From Flavobacterium omnivorum (GTDB lineage Bacteria; Bacteroidota; Bacteroidia; Flavobacteriales; Flavobacteriaceae): 64,000 bases of DNA. Every line of letters begins with the position of its first letter. Within the stretch, counting starts at the first letter, position 1. Positions 58,682 through 64,000 of this stretch are shown here, one piece after another. Location: NCBI RefSeq assembly GCF_900099915.1, contig NZ_FNDB01000019.1, forward strand, positions 1 through 64,000. Direction: 5' to 3'. The notes beneath the pieces are model-generated. The model saw only the letters and a list, made by a program, of their open reading frames with translations. It was not told where the DNA came from and did not search any database. The position numbers and the translations under genes are program-made.

Positions 58682-58799
58682 TGGGCGTGACCCTGCAGCG
58701 GCTTTGTCGTTCCTCCTCGCCACTTTGGGTCGGGCGGTACGCTGTATCTTTATTTTCTTAAAGAAAGAAAATAAAGGATGCCGCTTCCCTCCCTCACGC
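58682..58799. repeat. flavobacterial hairpin repeat, copy E
   Basis: Ends GCGTGA (58685-58690) and TCACGC (58794-58799) are inverted, with the core GGGTCGGGC ... CGCTGTATCTTTAT ... ATAAAGGATGCCGCTTCC. The central stem is a perfect 12-bp pair (58748-58759 with 58765-58776). Closest to copy A. Confidence 0.82.
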
Positions 58800-58865
58800 A
58801 AACCGTAATAACTATAACGTTTATTCTTTTCCAGAAAAATTGTAAGAAAAATTTAATATATTTGA
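58794..58865 (+). repeat. promoter-like module, copy 1
   Basis: About 72 bp, near-identical to 62347-62418 (about 90 percent by eye). It contains TTG at 58840-58842 and TATATTTG at 58857-58864, a Bacteroidota-type promoter, though the spacer (14 bp) is shorter than the usual range. Confidence 0.8.
58857..58864 (+). promoter_or_regulatory. -7 motif TATATTTG at the head of the array
   Basis: Matches TAnnTTTG. Lies upstream of abiH and in the same position in the second copy of the module. May drive cassette expression. Confidence 0.5.
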
Positions 58866-58893
58866 GGGAGTATAGAACGAAAGAAAGTTTCAC

Positions 58894-58955
58894 CAATCTA
58901 CCCATATTTTGATGTATAGACGAAGGTTTGTTTCGCCTATATACAAGTTGGCAGA
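58894..58955. repeat. attC/attI-like palindrome R0 before the first cassette
   Basis: Imperfect stem (TTGATGTATAGACGAA with TTCGCCTATATACAAG around 58910-58946, loop GGTTTG) ends in CAAGTTGGCAGA. The core G at 58947 begins GTTGGCAGA, the exact complement of the start (TCTGCCAAC) of the palindrome at the far end of the same unit. Not similar in sequence to R1-R3 apart from the core. Confidence 0.5.
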
Positions 58956-58992
58956 CAGCATATTGCGAATCGTTGAAAATAAAACATATAAA

Positions 58993-60275
58993 ATGAATAG
59001 AATAATACTAATTGGAAATGGTTTCGATTTAGCACACGGAATGTTAACTAGTTATAGAAATTTTATTGATGACTATTGGAAAGAATTTTTAAAAGAAATA
59101 GATAATGGAAATTTTCATAAAAACGAATTTGAAAACGAAGAATTAATAATAAAATTTTTCATTGGTTATGATTTAAGCGATATTGATACTTACAAAAAAT
59201 TAAAAGACAAAATTGAAAATTATCGTGTAGAAAAATTGAAATTAAGTTCAAGAATAAATTTTTTGAAATCATAAGCACGAATTGCTTTATCAATAATTGG
59301 GTTGATATCGAAAATGAGTACTATTTATTGCTAAAAACTTCTTTCAAAGAAAAAAATTGCAATTACAAAATTGACTCATTAAATCAAGACTTCTATAAGA
59401 TTCAAAAACTACTAGAAGAATATCTGAAAAAGGTTGAAACAAAATTCAATGAAGATTTCGGAAAAGATATGAATAGTGTAAGAATGAGGAGTAACATTGG
59501 TTATAAAGTTTATTCAGATTTTAAACTTAAAGATTTTACTGAATCATCAATTAACAAAAAAACCGAATTCGAATTTTCTAAATTGCAAAATGACATTAAA
59601 GGGTTGAAAGATAATCAAGTTGAATTATCAGAATTAAAAGAAGAAAATCGTAATCTAATTTCTCGAATTGGAGAAAATAATCCAATAAAAGAATTACGTA
59701 AATTATTAATTTCAGAAAGCGCACCTAATTACTTCCTTTTGCAACCTGAAGAAATTTTATTTCTAAATTTCAATTACACATTTACTGAAAAAATATATTC
59801 CAATCACAATGAATTTGAATCATATCACTCAAACAGTGGATTAAAGAAAAAATATATACATATTCACGGAACAACAGATCAATATGATAGAAATGACGTC
59901 ATCTTTGGCTTTGGAGATGAAATTGATGAAGATTATAAATCTATAGAAAATCTTAACAATAATGAATATCTCGAAAACATAAAATCTATTAAATATTTAG
60001 AAACAGATAATTACAAACAATTGTTAGAATTTCTAAATAGTGGAGATTATCAAATATTTATTTTTGGTCATTCTTGTGGAATATCTGACAGAACATTATT
60101 AAGTACTTTGTTTGAGCATAAACATTGCGCATCAATAAAACCATTTTATCATAAAAGAGTCGATGGGACTGACAACTATAGTGATATAATTAGAAATATT
60201 TCAAGAAATTTCAACAACAAATCAAGTATGCGTGACAAAGTAGTGAATAAAGAATATTGTGAGTCACTAAAATAA
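58993..60275 (+). CDS. abiH: AbiH-family abortive infection protein with a -1 frameshift
   Basis: An AbiH-type protein. The first part (58993-59274) starts MNRIILIGNGFDLAHGMLTSYRN, the signature N-terminus of AbiH. The second part (from about 59265 in the -1 frame, to 60275) carries NWVDIENEYY, FLNFNYTFTEKI, KYIHIHG and the C-terminal FGHSCGISDRTLLSTLFEH of the family. Together they give about 427 residues, a normal AbiH size. The shift lies at a run of six T: T-TTT-TTG at 59259-59265 in the zero frame, a classical -1 slippery heptamer. Either one T is lost (pseudogene) or a programmed -1 slip makes the full protein. AbiH defends against phage by abortive infection. The gene lies at the head of the cassette array; a longer ATG start at 58909 lies in the palindrome and is rejected. 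Confidence 0.82.
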
Positions 60276-60284
60276 AAATGCCGA

Positions 60285-60410
60285 TCTGCCAACCGCTGTT
60301 TTGATATAGCTTGAATTTAGTGGAATTGCCGTTCCGCATCAAGTTTTCGTTAAGCCGAAAATTGAGCGGTTACGAACTTCCAGCCATCTCAAAGCAGCAA
60401 AACGTTAGCC
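60285..60410. repeat. attC-like palindrome R1 (3' end of abiH cassette)
   Basis: 126 bp from TCTGCCAAC to GTTAGCC. Arms GCTGTTTTGATATAGC and the reverse complement of CATCTCAAAGCAGC pair with few mismatches (about 17 of 21). A central arm (AGTTTTCG ... CGAAAATT) forms the apex. Ends AAAACGTTAGCC, with cassette exchange expected after the G at 60404. R2 and R3 are clear relatives. Confidence 0.72.
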
Positions 60411-60431
60411 ATAATACTAAACAAATAATAA

Positions 60432-61232
60432 ATGAAACAACTTTTAATATTTTTAACTATCGGAATTTTACTTTTTTCTTGTTCTAGTAATGACGAAGAA
60501 ATTGAGAACGCTCAAAATAATGCCCCTTTGATAACCAAAATGAGTCCTTACGGTCTCACTTCAGAAAATCAATCTGGGTTATACACTTATTTTGAATATG
60601 ACAATGCCAAACGATTAACTAAAAAATCGGGAAATTTTATTGAAATAAATCCCAGAACATTTTATATAAATGAAATATGTACTTCTTTAGAATATGACAA
60701 TAATATAGTTACTGTTGAAAACTTCACAACATTAGTGGGAAAGTCAGTTCCTAAGGAATCTATTTACATTACTTTAAATAAATCAATGCAAATTGAGAAA
60801 AAAGAAATTCCAAATGGTTACAATAACTCTTGGTATAGAAAACTTCTTTATTATTATTCAGACAATAAACTTGTGGAAATAAAAACAACTTTTCCAAATA
60901 CACCTTATACTTTTCCGGATAATTATTTGTTGACTTTCTCAGAAAAATTCTACTATGACTCTAATAGTAATTTAAGCAAAACTGAATATTTTGAGCAACG
61001 TAATAGCATAAATAAAGGTGAAAAAATTGTTCGAATATTTGAAAATTATGATAATTCTATAAATCCTTTGAAAAGGTTTTATTTATTAGATCAGTATTTC
61101 TATGGATCAATCTCAAAAAACAATTACACGAAATATACTGAAATACATTACGATGATGATGTGGAAACTACAAAACATGAAAGTAGCTGGAAATATTTGT
61201 ATGACGAAAAAGGAAATATTTTGGTTAATTAA
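60432..61232 (+). CDS. lipoprotein of unknown function (cassette gene)
   Basis: A 266-residue lipoprotein: signal peptide with lipobox LLFSC (Cys17). The body is rich in YxYDxxxxL-like strands (YTYFEYDNAKRL, YYSDNKLVEIKT, YYDSNSNLSKTEYFE, YLYDEKGNILVN), the pattern seen in flavobacterial lipoproteins with RHS-like beta repeats. No catalytic residue is evident. It is anchored at a membrane. It occupies its own cassette between palindromes R1 and R2, and its start is 21 bp after R1. Confidence 0.75.
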   Translation: MKQLLIFLTIGILLFSCSSNDEEIENAQNNAPLITKMSPYGLTSENQSGLYTYFEYDNAKRLTKKSGNFIEINPRTFYINEICTSLEYDNNIVTVENFTTLVGKSVPKESIYITLNKSMQIEKKEIPNGYNNSWYRKLLYYYSDNKLVEIKTTFPNTPYTFPDNYLLTFSEKFYYDSNSNLSKTEYFEQRNSINKGEKIVRIFENYDNSINPLKRFYLLDQYFYGSISKNNYTKYTEIHYDDDVETTKHESSWKYLYDEKGNILVN

Positions 61233-61250
61233 TTATTGAGATAGTACTAT

Positions 61251-61375
61251 GGCTGACAGCTGTTTTGAGCTAGCTGGAGTTTAGTGGAATTATCGTTTCG
61301 CATCAACTTTTCTGCAAAGCAGAATGTTAAAAGGTTACAAATTCCCCACCATCGCCAAGCTGCCAAACGTTGTGC
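61251..61375. repeat. attC-like palindrome R2 (3' end of lipoprotein cassette)
   Basis: 125 bp from GGCTGAC to GTTGTGC. Shares GCTGTTTTGAGCTAGCTGGAG, TTTAGTGGAATTATCGTTTC and GGTTACAAATTCC with R1/R3. The sequence before it (AGTACTATGGCTGAC) is the reverse complement of the start of the same unit (GTTAGCCATAATACT) with two mismatches. Confidence 0.75.
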
Positions 61376-61417
61376 GAAACTTTCGAGCGACAGAAAAACG
61401 AAAACAAACAAATAAAT

Positions 61418-62146
61418 ATGAAAAAACATTTAACAATTTTAGCATTTGTGCTTTTAACATTCAACTCTTTTTCACAGAATAAAACCGGAAATGAAATAAC
61501 AGCGGAAGGAATTGCAAAAATGAAAGTTAAGCCAGATTTGGCAAGTTTTAGAATTAGTGTTTCAAAACGTAATTTAGTAGAAAAGATTTCAATTAAGGAA
61601 TTAAATGAAGAAATAGAAAAAGTACAGAAATTACTTTTGCGAATTGGTTTTACAGAAAAAAACATTAAAATCTCGGAATACAAAGTATCTAGTGATGAAC
61701 ATAATGACAATAAAAAGGAATATACATCTGAAAATACTTTGGTTGTTGAATTTGCTCTTGATAACAAAATAATTGAGGCATTTTATCAAGAAATACAAAA
61801 CGAAAACCTAAAAGATTCAGATATAGATTTTGAAACTCAGGTTTCTGATCAATTAGAAAAAACTACAAGACAAAATCTAGTAAAAATTGCAATTGGAGAA
61901 GCAAAAAGTAATGCAGAAAATATTGCAAATGCACTTGAAGTGAAACTGCTAAATGTAAAACAAGTTTCAAAATTTACAATGCGTGATTTTGAAAGTGCTT
62001 CTATGATGAAAGTGTCAGAAATTAAAATGGGTAAAGTTATGCCAGCAATGGCTTCAAATCAAAAAACTTCTTTTGATAAATTTGATGTGGAAGAAAAAGA
62101 ATTGGAAGAAACGATTACAATTGTTTACGAAATAATAAATAAATAA
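61418..62146 (+). CDS. SIMPL-domain (DUF541) secreted protein (cassette gene)
   Basis: A 242-residue export protein from ATG 61418 (signal peptide MKKHLTILAFVLLTFNSFSQ). A longer frame from 61370 starts in the R2 palindrome and is rejected. The SIMPL domain is recognised by EITAEGIAKMKVKPDLASFRISVSK, then KLLLRIGFTEKNIKISEYKVS and ENTLVVEFALDNK. SIMPL proteins (Brucella BP26-like) form ring channels in the periplasm; the precise role is unknown. It is a cassette between palindromes R2 and R3. Confidence 0.85.
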   Translation: MKKHLTILAFVLLTFNSFSQNKTGNEITAEGIAKMKVKPDLASFRISVSKRNLVEKISIKELNEEIEKVQKLLLRIGFTEKNIKISEYKVSSDEHNDNKKEYTSENTLVVEFALDNKIIEAFYQEIQNENLKDSDIDFETQVSDQLEKTTRQNLVKIAIGEAKSNAENIANALEVKLLNVKQVSKFTMRDFESASMMKVSEIKMGKVMPAMASNQKTSFDKFDVEEKELEETITIVYEIINK

Positions 62147-62155
62147 AAAGCAATC

Positions 62156-62276
62156 GCACAAAAGCTTTGAGTTAGCTGGAGTACAATGGAATTATCGTTT
62201 CGCATCAAGTTTTCGTTAAGCCGAAAATTGAGCGATTATGAACCTCACTTCATTTCAAAGATGCAAAACATTATAA
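62156..62276. repeat. attC-like palindrome R3 (3' end of SIMPL cassette)
   Basis: 121 bp from GCACAAA to ATTATAA. Its central part, from TGGAATTATCGTTTCGC through CGAAAATTGAGCG, is nearly the same as R1 and R2. Begins TCGCACAA, the exact complement of TTGTGCGA that opens the same unit. Core at the right end is ACATT rather than ACGTT. Confidence 0.75.
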
Positions 62277-62293
62277 AAAAACTCAAACTAGAA

Positions 62294-62344
62294 ATGAAAT
62301 ATGCTGAATTTAATATTGACTATAATAAAAAAGAATTCTTAAAC
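62294..62344 (+). pseudogene. 5' fragment of the gene that follows R4
   Basis: The sequence from 62270 to about 62344 matches 63776 to about 63850, including the ATG and 16 codons (MKYAEFNID...). It breaks off at TTAAAC and joins promoter-like module copy 2. It is a broken duplicate of the hypothetical protein that begins at 63798. Confidence 0.75.
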
Positions 62345-62346
62345 CT

Positions 62347-62418
62347 TCACGCAAACCGCAGTAACTATAACGTTTATTCTTTCGCATGAAAATTGTAAGA
62401 AAAATTTAATATATTTGA
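62347..62418 (+). repeat. promoter-like module, copy 2
   Basis: Second copy of 58794-58865, with TATATTTG at 62410-62417. After it follow a spacer, the shared CAATCTACCC (62447-62456) and a palindrome, the same order as at the head of the array. Confidence 0.8.
62410..62417 (+). promoter_or_regulatory. -7 motif TATATTTG before the protease gene
   Basis: TATATTTG fits TAnnTTTG exactly, in the second copy of the module. Confidence 0.5.
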
Positions 62419-62461
62419 AAAAACATAAGGTGCAATTCAATAGCGACAATCTACCCGATTA

Positions 62462-62520
62462 GGGTTGAGTGTAAACGATATTTCGTGGCGAGTAAAAACA
62501 AATTGACAGTAATTCAACCC
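62462..62520. repeat. palindrome before the protease cassette gene
   Basis: GGGTTGA (62462-62468) and TCAACCC (62514-62520) are perfect terminal inverted repeats, with an internal ACGA/TCGT stem. Differs in sequence from R1-R3 and from R0 but holds the same place relative to CAATCTACCC. Confidence 0.55.
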
Positions 62521-62535
62521 AAAATATAATAACAA

Positions 62536-63708
62536 ATGATAAATATTAGAATCGTAATATTTCTTCTGCTTTCAAATTATTGTGTTGCACAAGATGTAAA
62601 TTTTAATTTAGGGAATTCGAAAGAATTAAACTATTATTCAGAAATACCTTTTGAATATGTTAATGGAAAAATAATAGTTTCAGTATTAATAAATGAAAAT
62701 AAATATAGATTTTTATTAGATACTGGTGCACCAAACCTAATAACAAAAAGATTAAGTACTATTTTAAATCTTGAAAGTTTGCAGGAATTAAAAATTAGTG
62801 ATGCAAATCAAATAAAGTCAACAATGAATATTGTTCAATTACCAAATTTGACAATAGGTAGTATTATTTTTGAAAATTCAGTTGCCTTATCTTCGCAAGA
62901 CGAAAATAATTTAGTATTTGATTGTTTTGAAATTGATGGTTTTATTGGAAGTAATTTATTAAGAAACTCGATTATTCAAATTGATGTTAAAAATAAAATA
63001 TTAATAATAACTAATGATCTTAAAAAACTTCACTTAAACAATGAAAATAGTTCAAAACTATCATTATTTGGGCAACAAAGTAGTCCTTTTATATGGTTAA
63101 AATTAACCGGCTCAAAAGATAGTGGCAAAGAACAAGTACTATTGGATACAGGAATGAAAGGTTTTTATGATATTTCACATAAAAATTATATAAAATTTAA
63201 AGATGAAAAAATTTTTAGTGAAGTTGCAAATGGAAAAGGTTCAGAAAGCATTGGATTAAGCGGGAATTCTCCAGAAAGTGAACAGGTAAGATTACTACTT
63301 AAACATATGAAGATTGCAAATTCAGCTTTCCTAAATATATCGACTACAACTACAAATGATAATAATTCGAGGATAGGAATTGGCTTATTCGAAAATGGTA
63401 TAGGTACAATTGATTTTATTAACAAAAAATTTTATTTTGAACAATATGAACATAATAAAGATTTAATCGAAAAATATTTACCGTTTTCCCGGACAATAAT
63501 AAATAATAAGCTCTCCATCGGTATTGTCTGGGATGAAAAATTGAAAGCTAAAATAAATTACGGTGACGAAATCATTGAAATTAATGGAAAAAACTACGAA
63601 AACTATAAATTATGTGATTTTATTAATAAATCAATTTTTGAGAATATCACAGTTTCAGAAATAAAAATAAGAAATAAAAAAGGTGAAATCAACATAATAA
63701 CATTGTAA
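62536..63708 (+). CDS. two-lobed retropepsin-like aspartic protease with C-terminal PDZ-like domain (cassette gene)
   Basis: A 390-residue export protein with a signal peptide (MINIRIVIFLLLSNYCVAQ). The first aspartic lobe has FLLDTGAPNLIT (Asp62-Thr-Gly), the second VLLDTGMKGFYD (Asp204-Thr-Gly). Both catalytic DTG triads are present on one chain, like pepsin-fold or flavobacterial retropepsin-like enzymes. The C-terminal part (about 320-390, with INYGDEIIEINGKNYENYKL) is PDZ-like. It should cleave proteins in the periplasm or at the surface; substrate unknown. The gene is the largest in the cassette region and is preceded by promoter-like module copy 2. Confidence 0.82.
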   Translation: MINIRIVIFLLLSNYCVAQDVNFNLGNSKELNYYSEIPFEYVNGKIIVSVLINENKYRFLLDTGAPNLITKRLSTILNLESLQELKISDANQIKSTMNIVQLPNLTIGSIIFENSVALSSQDENNLVFDCFEIDGFIGSNLLRNSIIQIDVKNKILIITNDLKKLHLNNENSSKLSLFGQQSSPFIWLKLTGSKDSGKEQVLLDTGMKGFYDISHKNYIKFKDEKIFSEVANGKGSESIGLSGNSPESEQVRLLLKHMKIANSAFLNISTTTTNDNNSRIGIGLFENGIGTIDFINKKFYFEQYEHNKDLIEKYLPFSRTIINNKLSIGIVWDEKLKAKINYGDEIIEINGKNYENYKLCDFINKSIFENITVSEIKIRNKKGEINIITL

Positions 63709-63712
63709 AAAA

Positions 63713-63782
63713 TCACAACAAAAAACTGTTTTGATATAGTGTCTAATTCCATACAACATTTCAATGCAGCGGAACATTATAA
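63713..63782. repeat. shortened attC-like palindrome R4
   Basis: About 70 bp. Begins TCACAAC and ends GGAACATTATAA. Left arm CTGTTTTGATATAG and right arm CATTTCAATGCAGC match the outer arms of R1 and R3, but the apex (about 55 bp) is missing. It looks like an internally deleted attC-like site. Confidence 0.6.
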
Positions 63783-63797
63783 AAAATCAAACTAAAA

Positions 63798-64000
63798 ATG
63801 AAATACGCTGAATTTAATATTGACTCGAATAAAATAGAATTCTTAAACTCAGTTTTTGGAATTGAAAGTGTTTTACTGAATGGAAAAAGAATTTCTAAAA
63901 AGTTTTCTTTTTCTGGAATTACCCACGAAATAAAACTAAACGCCAGAGATTTAGTATTAGAATCCAAATGCAAACAATTCGACAAAAAAGAAATCAAACT
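63798..64000 (+). CDS. hypothetical protein, start only (cut by window edge)
   Basis: Open from ATG 63798 to the window edge (67 codons). Begins MKYAEFNIDSNKIEFLNSV and continues with VLLNGKRISKKFSFSGITHEIKL. It is the next cassette gene after R4, and a 51-bp broken copy of its start lies at 62294-62344. No family recognised. Confidence 0.7.
   Translation, partial: MKYAEFNIDSNKIEFLNSVFGIESVLLNGKRISKKFSFSGITHEIKLNARDLVLESKCKQFDKKEIK

Follow-up and report, generated by a model that had tools for sequence, protein, structure and literature searches.

Our analysis of a 64,000-nucleotide stretch of the Flavobacterium omnivorum genome (positions 1 to 64,000 of contig NZ_FNDB01000019.1, hereafter the window) reveals towards its right end a series of units, each with a gene and a hairpin-forming site whose sequence is complementary to the start of the same unit (Table 1). 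These units are most probably integron-type gene cassettes inserted by a Xer-like tyrosine recombinase that lacks the I2-carrying insertion of the integron integrase IntI, with the sites of the window being served in trans. This appears to be an integron type that has been overlooked in Flavobacterium and related bacteria; the system works as an integron does, but by the IntI criterion its recombinase is not a member. An original prediction, made from the sequence of the window, had correctly described the units and the pairing of their ends, and had made no mention of an attI-like site before unit 1, a second one at 62344, the integron platform of the genome, or an integrase without the insertion.

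In the window, GTTGGCAGA at 58947 of unit 1 pairs with TCTGCCAAC ending at 60293 at 9 of 9 positions, GTTAGCCATAATACTA at 60404 of unit 2 pairs with TAGTACTATGGCTGAC at 61242–61257 at 14 of 16, and TTGTGCGA at 61370 of unit 3 pairs with TCGCACAA at 62154–62161 at 8 of 8, as predicted. The paired sequences vary from unit to unit, which had also been claimed: of the 12 bases that follow GTT, 7, 11 and 8 match between own ends and 2–6 between swapped ends. All three units match at every one of the first six positions, as do 14 of 20,000 random GTT/AAC pairs from the window.

Equal pairing of own ends and of ends from different units, which the original prediction had named as fatal to its claim, is not what many loci show. 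From 239 sites we obtained 179 consecutive units shorter than 4 kb, 170 of them with clean anchors and 163 unique (9 units with unclear anchors and 7 duplicates being left out). Own ends in this set match on average at 9.07 of 12 positions and ends of different units at 4.51, and none of 10,000 permutations reaches the own-end mean. The own-end match is 0.93, 0.90, 0.88, 0.90, 0.90 and 0.86 at positions 1–6 after GTT, as compared with 0.53, 0.43, 0.32, 0.27, 0.59 and 0.34 for different units; it is 0.56 at position 7 and 0.04 at position 8, a fixed mismatch, returns to 0.84, 0.77, 0.75 and 0.74 at positions 9–12, and lies at chance level further out. The profile was replicated in 77 independent units from 22 named loci (L148 and L175 being left out as repeats of G007 and G056), with values of 0.94–0.84 at positions 1–6, then 0.61 and 0.03, and 0.84–0.79 thereafter. 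A consensus pattern for cassette starts performed no better than chance.

One part of the original prediction has to be given up, namely the core GTTRRRY, which is the integron core consensus. Units 1 and 3 start with GTTGGCA and GTTGTGC and fall outside it, and therefore GTTRRRY is not the right core here; 29% of units have T at the second position behind GTT. By comparison, an integron with a matched IntI gene, on the Gemmatirosa kalamazoonensis plasmid NZ_CP007129.1, shows the same own-end signature over GTT and the next eight bases in 36 unique units: 0.97–1.0 at positions 1–6, 0.83 and 0.72 at positions 7 and 8, 0.03 at position 9, and then chance. Pairing past the seven-base core followed by a fixed mismatch is therefore a property of integron cassettes. 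The two systems differ in its register, as the mismatch falls at position 8 in Flavobacterium and pairing runs on to position 12, whereas the control pairs to position 8 and stops. Ten other IntI loci were not used as controls, since a hand-made hairpin scan found no sites in them when strict and few when looser; the Gemmatirosa array was used instead.

Folding the end-to-end joint of each unit as a circle, which the original prediction had proposed, restores the hairpin, and the own joint is more stable than the joint with another unit in 152 of 163 cases. The mean bottom-strand fold, with DNA parameters, is −30.2 kcal/mol for the own joint, −23.3 kcal/mol with the start of a randomly chosen other unit and −23.0 kcal/mol for the site as it stands in the array. 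Furthermore, the bottom strand is more stable than the top strand in 149 of the 163 own joints, which is no more than consistent with recombination of the folded bottom strand; the recombinase may use that strand.

Whole cassettes also change place. Among 264 cassettes, near-identical ones (95–100%) recur beside different neighbours, and the identity stops at GTT. In one genome (G045), each of three cassettes (715–754 nt) is present three times with different neighbours, the copies being 99.7–100% identical. Between species, a cassette of F. omnivorum shares 97.3% identity over its full 709 nt with one in Flavobacterium sp. 245, and a second pair reaches 95%. In the six sets examined, the ungapped identity of the 120 nt outside the GTT border is 0.27–0.66. 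Insertion with a crossover between G and TT, as originally proposed, is thus the best-supported reading, resting on the IntI control, the joint folds and the identity that ends at GTT. As a separate observation, insertion sequence (IS)-like ends (GTCAGGCTGTGAAAAAACC and GTCAAACTGTCTAAAAACC) start at the attC crossover in L062, L064, L065, L067, L070, L071, L085 and L086 and at about 9500–12100 of contig C17 of the window's genome, so some insertion sequences seem to target attC-like sites.

The sites fold as imperfect hairpins with an outer R and an inner L pairing, both in the consensus fold of 10 copies and in the 163 own-joint folds; covariation in the consensus fold is weak (6 of 32 pairs, term +0.62). 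By DNA similarity the repeat occurs in about ten copies in the window's genome, some of which stand alone. A hand-made hairpin scan gave too many chance hits for detection and was replaced by covariance models, of which R1 was built from the ten copies without their variable end bases and R2 from 150 R1 matches. R1 has matches in 40 of 61 genomes of the genus, and R2 in 45 of the 199 family genomes, the 45 representing 44 of 198 genera.

The platform of the window's genome lies outside the window, on contig C17, where the stop codon of a gene for a 347-residue tyrosine recombinase is followed, after about 100 bp, by an attI and then by seven same-strand attC-like sites, two of them split by a transposase-like insert. 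The attI adjoins the integrase gene, and the first cassette is inserted there. Most of the other array genomes examined have a similar platform. Pairing located the left end of the first cassette in 12 of 13 loci of the genus, at 101–104 bp past the stop codon in 8 of them; this count covers integrase matches near arrays and leaves aside L128, which is divergent, L131, where the contig ends, and L132, which has a stop codon and no array. In 39 further loci the junction was located by pairing in 37, at 84–131 nt past the stop codon in 33. In an unbiased test of the linkage, 80 loci fetched solely by recombinase similarity contain 129 R2 sites, 126 of them 3' of the recombinase gene on its strand, 1 on its 5' side and 2 on the other strand. 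Fifty of these loci have a 3' flank of 1 kb or more, and 40 of the 50 contain an attC hit. We infer that the array-linked recombinase is the enzyme that acts on the cassettes.

Specific features of attI recur in the window. Positions 58845–58949 align with 28 attI regions directly 3' of integrase genes and, in a search of the own genome, are 81% identical to the copy next to the integrase. In the resulting alignment of 29 regions, a TATATTTG-like box and two palindromic arms are accompanied by a middle of CTACCC...GGGT and a border of TATATACAA followed by GTT. The window segment fits this alignment and is therefore an attI-like site (A) before cassette 1, with a worn copy (B) at 62344–62504. 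A TAnnTTTG-like box, present in most of the aligned regions, resembles the Bacteroidota promoter consensus and is a candidate for the promoter Pc before the first cassette. The arm bases covary across species in 12 of 12 predicted pairs, and each arm can pair with itself or with the other arm. A short motif also occurs in attI four times in alternating orientation; it varies between species and covaries at all four places, and hairpins, operators and recombinase arm sites are candidate roles for it. More attI-like copies without a platform occur on contigs C25, C24 and C19 of the same genome, and the C17 platform may have served these lone sites, and those of the window, in trans.

The recombinase itself departs from a typical IntI. 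Its best match among curated models is the XerA-type NF040815 (218.6 bits, cut-off 220), whereas the IntI model TIGR02249 gives 204.6 bits in two stretches (cut-off 265), with five of the integrases scoring 200–217 bits. Positions of about 180–238 of TIGR02249 are left unmatched, and the alignment with IntI4 falls into two pieces, separated by about 40 extra residues. The KDR and HxLRH motifs are 61–62 residues apart in 24 of 24 array-linked recombinases and relatives, as compared with 103 in all 12 measurable canonical IntIs of the phylum; the IntI-specific insertion carrying I2 is thus absent. The closest solved relatives by sequence and fold are XerA and a Xer-like archaeal protein (PDB 5hxy and 4a8e), followed by IntI4. 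The recombinase differs from XerA and Xer in standing beside cassette arrays and in having an extra N-terminal part of about 65 residues, with strands and helices in the predicted model. In a tree of 43 proteins (a duplicate recombinase and the second recombinase of L237 being left out), the array-linked recombinases group at 93/92 and IntI at 100/100.

These observations suggest the following course. Each cassette would once have been a circle with a whole attC hairpin. The tyrosine recombinase would open the circle between G and TT and join it to attI or to another attC, so that the right half of the cassette's own attC stem became its left end. In Flavobacterium and relatives, a working platform would comprise the Xer-like recombinase of 347 residues, an attI that follows the stop codon of its gene at about 100 bp, and an array read in the direction of that gene. 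The attI-like copies of the window, which have cassettes but no recombinase with them, would have been filled in trans from another contig and would now be wearing out. Since the recombinase lacks the insertion that holds I2, the hairpins would have to be handled without it; either hairpin recognition works without I2, or another part, perhaps the extra N-terminal domain, may replace it. In this regard, we lean towards the broader view that a separate Xer-like clade captures cassettes at attC hairpins without I2 and runs full platforms across Flavobacteriia and other Bacteroidota, as a pre-I2 lineage or an independent invention, perhaps with its own N-terminal domain and a four-fold symmetric attI.

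Several observations weigh against this account or against the end pairing on which it draws. Own ends are the best or tied partners in only 118 of 163 units at a width of 12, and 17 of the 163 pair poorly over the first six positions. Among these 17, some carry IS-like ends at the site and others, which are long, probably contain a site that was missed; not all are accounted for. Unit 3 of the window belongs to the 17 because the model mis-anchored its worn site, and by hand it pairs fully. No attC hit was found in 10 of the 50 integrase loci with enough flank. Only in L128 (G022) is the integrase directed away from the array, the arrangement of classical integrons, and the arrays of G047 (L118) and G016 (L126) adjoin longer recombinases of 590 and 609 residues without the IntI insertion, where the paired attI border lies only 36–45 nt past the stop codon. 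The predicted structure is of moderate quality (pLDDT 77, pTM 0.47), the relation of the array-linked clade to IntI is supported at just 63/39 in the tree, and the trans step is itself inferred.

The lack of a recombinase on the window's own contig (no match in a PF00589 search) would suit an origin as clusters of attC sites lacking integrases (CALIN), that is, ordinary attC clusters made and moved by canonical IntI from elsewhere, and IntI over the cut-off does exist in 105 of 395 genomes of the phylum. Nearly all of these belong to other classes, however; the 108 genomes with an IntI match listed include one from the same class and none from the same genus, and IntI exceeds the 265-bit cut-off in none of the 22 array-bearing genomes. 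As in 12 of 13 and 37 of 39 loci the arrays instead begin at an attI beside a recombinase other than IntI, we consider this origin improbable.

Recombination of the sites in trans by the host XerC/XerD, as in Xer–dif modules, with the adjoining recombinase being incidental, gains from the Xer-like sequence of the array recombinase, which means that hairpins of this kind might suit Xer proteins. It is nevertheless highly improbable in view of the linkage and strand bias with one recombinase clade, and the sites are imperfect hairpins of about 117–125 nt, whereas dif sites are short. That the repeats are intergenic palindromes or elements resembling miniature inverted-repeat transposable elements between unrelated genes, with end pairing as a by-product, would agree with the single copies that stand alone in the genome; this is hardly credible, given that the pairing is specific to each unit and varies between units, and that entire cassettes move rather than repeats alone. 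A Xer-like recombinase without I2 remains our preferred agent of cassette capture.

Compared with IntI integrons, the system shares one gene and one hairpin site per cassette, own-end pairing that begins at GTT and is followed by a fixed mismatch, a recombinase gene adjoining the array and movement between G and TT, and differs in the missing IntI insertion. Passages of one report describe Treponema integrons in which the integrase gene likewise reads towards attI, in the cassette direction; these are intI systems in another phylum, and no I2-less integrase is reported in those passages (PMC3607928). The window resembles CALIN, as defined in part of a 2022 survey, in having attC arrays without an adjoining integrase, and departs from that definition in its attI-like sites and in an integrase elsewhere in the genome that is not IntI by the curated model (PMC9024848). 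For Bacteroidetes proper, the same part of the survey names one complete integron, that of Salinibacter (PMC9024848). An excerpt of PMC9668308 treats the additional domain around patch III, or I2, as a defining characteristic of IntI. According to excerpts of PMC7790495, cassette capture requires I2, no other protein contains it, and direct proof of its causal role is lacking because IntI1 loses its function when I2 is deleted. Whether attC or I2 came first is called a "chicken-egg paradox" in a passage of PMC4792948. No description of such an I2-less cassette platform appears in the portions of the open-licence PubMed Central literature that were covered. With a natural platform that combines attC-like cassettes and a recombinase lacking I2, the question of the order of I2 and attC becomes directly testable, and tools that seek the IntI domain may miss cassette arrays in Bacteroidota.

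Further recombinases were seen around the arrays. A recombinase-like gene on contig C25 (446 aa, L022 3491–4831) was rejected as an integrase, its motifs looking degenerate by eye and its place between attC-like sites being that of a cassette gene; it has an extra C-terminal part, and an attI-like copy lies just before it. A tyrosine recombinase of 328 residues is present in G045 in five near-identical copies, two of which (L120 7571–8554 and 11533–12516) lie close to the end of the big cassette array of this genome; it is probably a mobile element of its own. Chryseobacterium plasmids (L258 and L259) carry the array-linked recombinase at 68–70% identity, and on one Chryseobacterium plasmid (NZ_CP041688.1) it is followed by a cassette-like gene run and a group II intron.

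The longest open reading frame (ORF) lies on the cassette strand in 233 of 250 cassettes, and the median cassette has one ORF that starts 47 nt from the left end and covers 70% of the cassette. Matches among 100 of the 230 cassette ORFs (from 150 listed, transposase-like ones being left out by eye) include GNAT acetyltransferases, Abi_alpha, Cass2, Drt2, an oligonucleotide cyclase and restriction-modification genes, and the cargo includes defence genes. A 605-residue reverse transcriptase, named by eye, stands directly before an attC-like site on contig C24 (L025 3820–5637), as if it were cassette cargo.

Table 1. Sites and cassettes of the locus in the window (R2, covariance model)
Feature	Position	Strand	Parts and content
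attI-like site A	58845..58949	+	No integrase adjoining; TATATTTG box 58857–58864; palindromic arms 58877–58893 (worn) and 58920–58936; right border TATATACAA then GTT (58947–58949)
Cassette 1	58948..60404	+	AbiH-like gene as ORFs 58993–59274 and 59328–60275
attC-like site 1	60285..60406	+	R'' TCTGCCAAC; crossover between G60404 and T60405; R2 116.5 bits at 60290–60406
Cassette 2	60405..61369	+	ORF 60432–61232, 266-aa protein
attC-like site 2	61242..61371	+	R2 82.9 bits at 61254–61371
Cassette 3	61370..62270	+	SIMPL/DUF541 protein, ORF 61418–62146, Pfam PF04402
attC-like site 3, worn	62154..62272	+	R2 78.6 bits at 62156–62272
attI-like site B, worn	62344..62504	+	No integrase
Cassette 4, decayed (probable)	62503..63776	+	Aspartyl-protease-like ORF 62536–63708, Pfam PF13650
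attC-like remnant with internal deletion	63726..63778	+	CTGTTTTGATATAG common to sites 1 and 2; end GGAACATT

The AbiH-like gene of cassette 1 is probably broken, the Pfam AbiH match being confined to the first ORF with none in the second, and attC-like site 1 has homologous copies elsewhere in the genome. The protein of cassette 2 matched no Pfam family; a related cassette is present at 201965–202931 of contig C25 in the same genome. Wear in attC-like site 3 has changed GTT to ATT and AAC to AAA. Cassette 4 starts at a worn attI border (TTGACAGTAATTC), and no clear own-end pairing was found for it. Directly before attI-like site A lies a Flavo-1 RNA (Rfam RF01705, 57 bits, 58724–58817 on the minus strand), the sole match in an Rfam scan of the region. 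The first 75 bases of site B repeat 58791–58865 at 91%. A duplicated gene start, at 62274–62344 and 63778–63848, flanks site B and cassette 4, as if attI and cassette had moved in together as a single unit.

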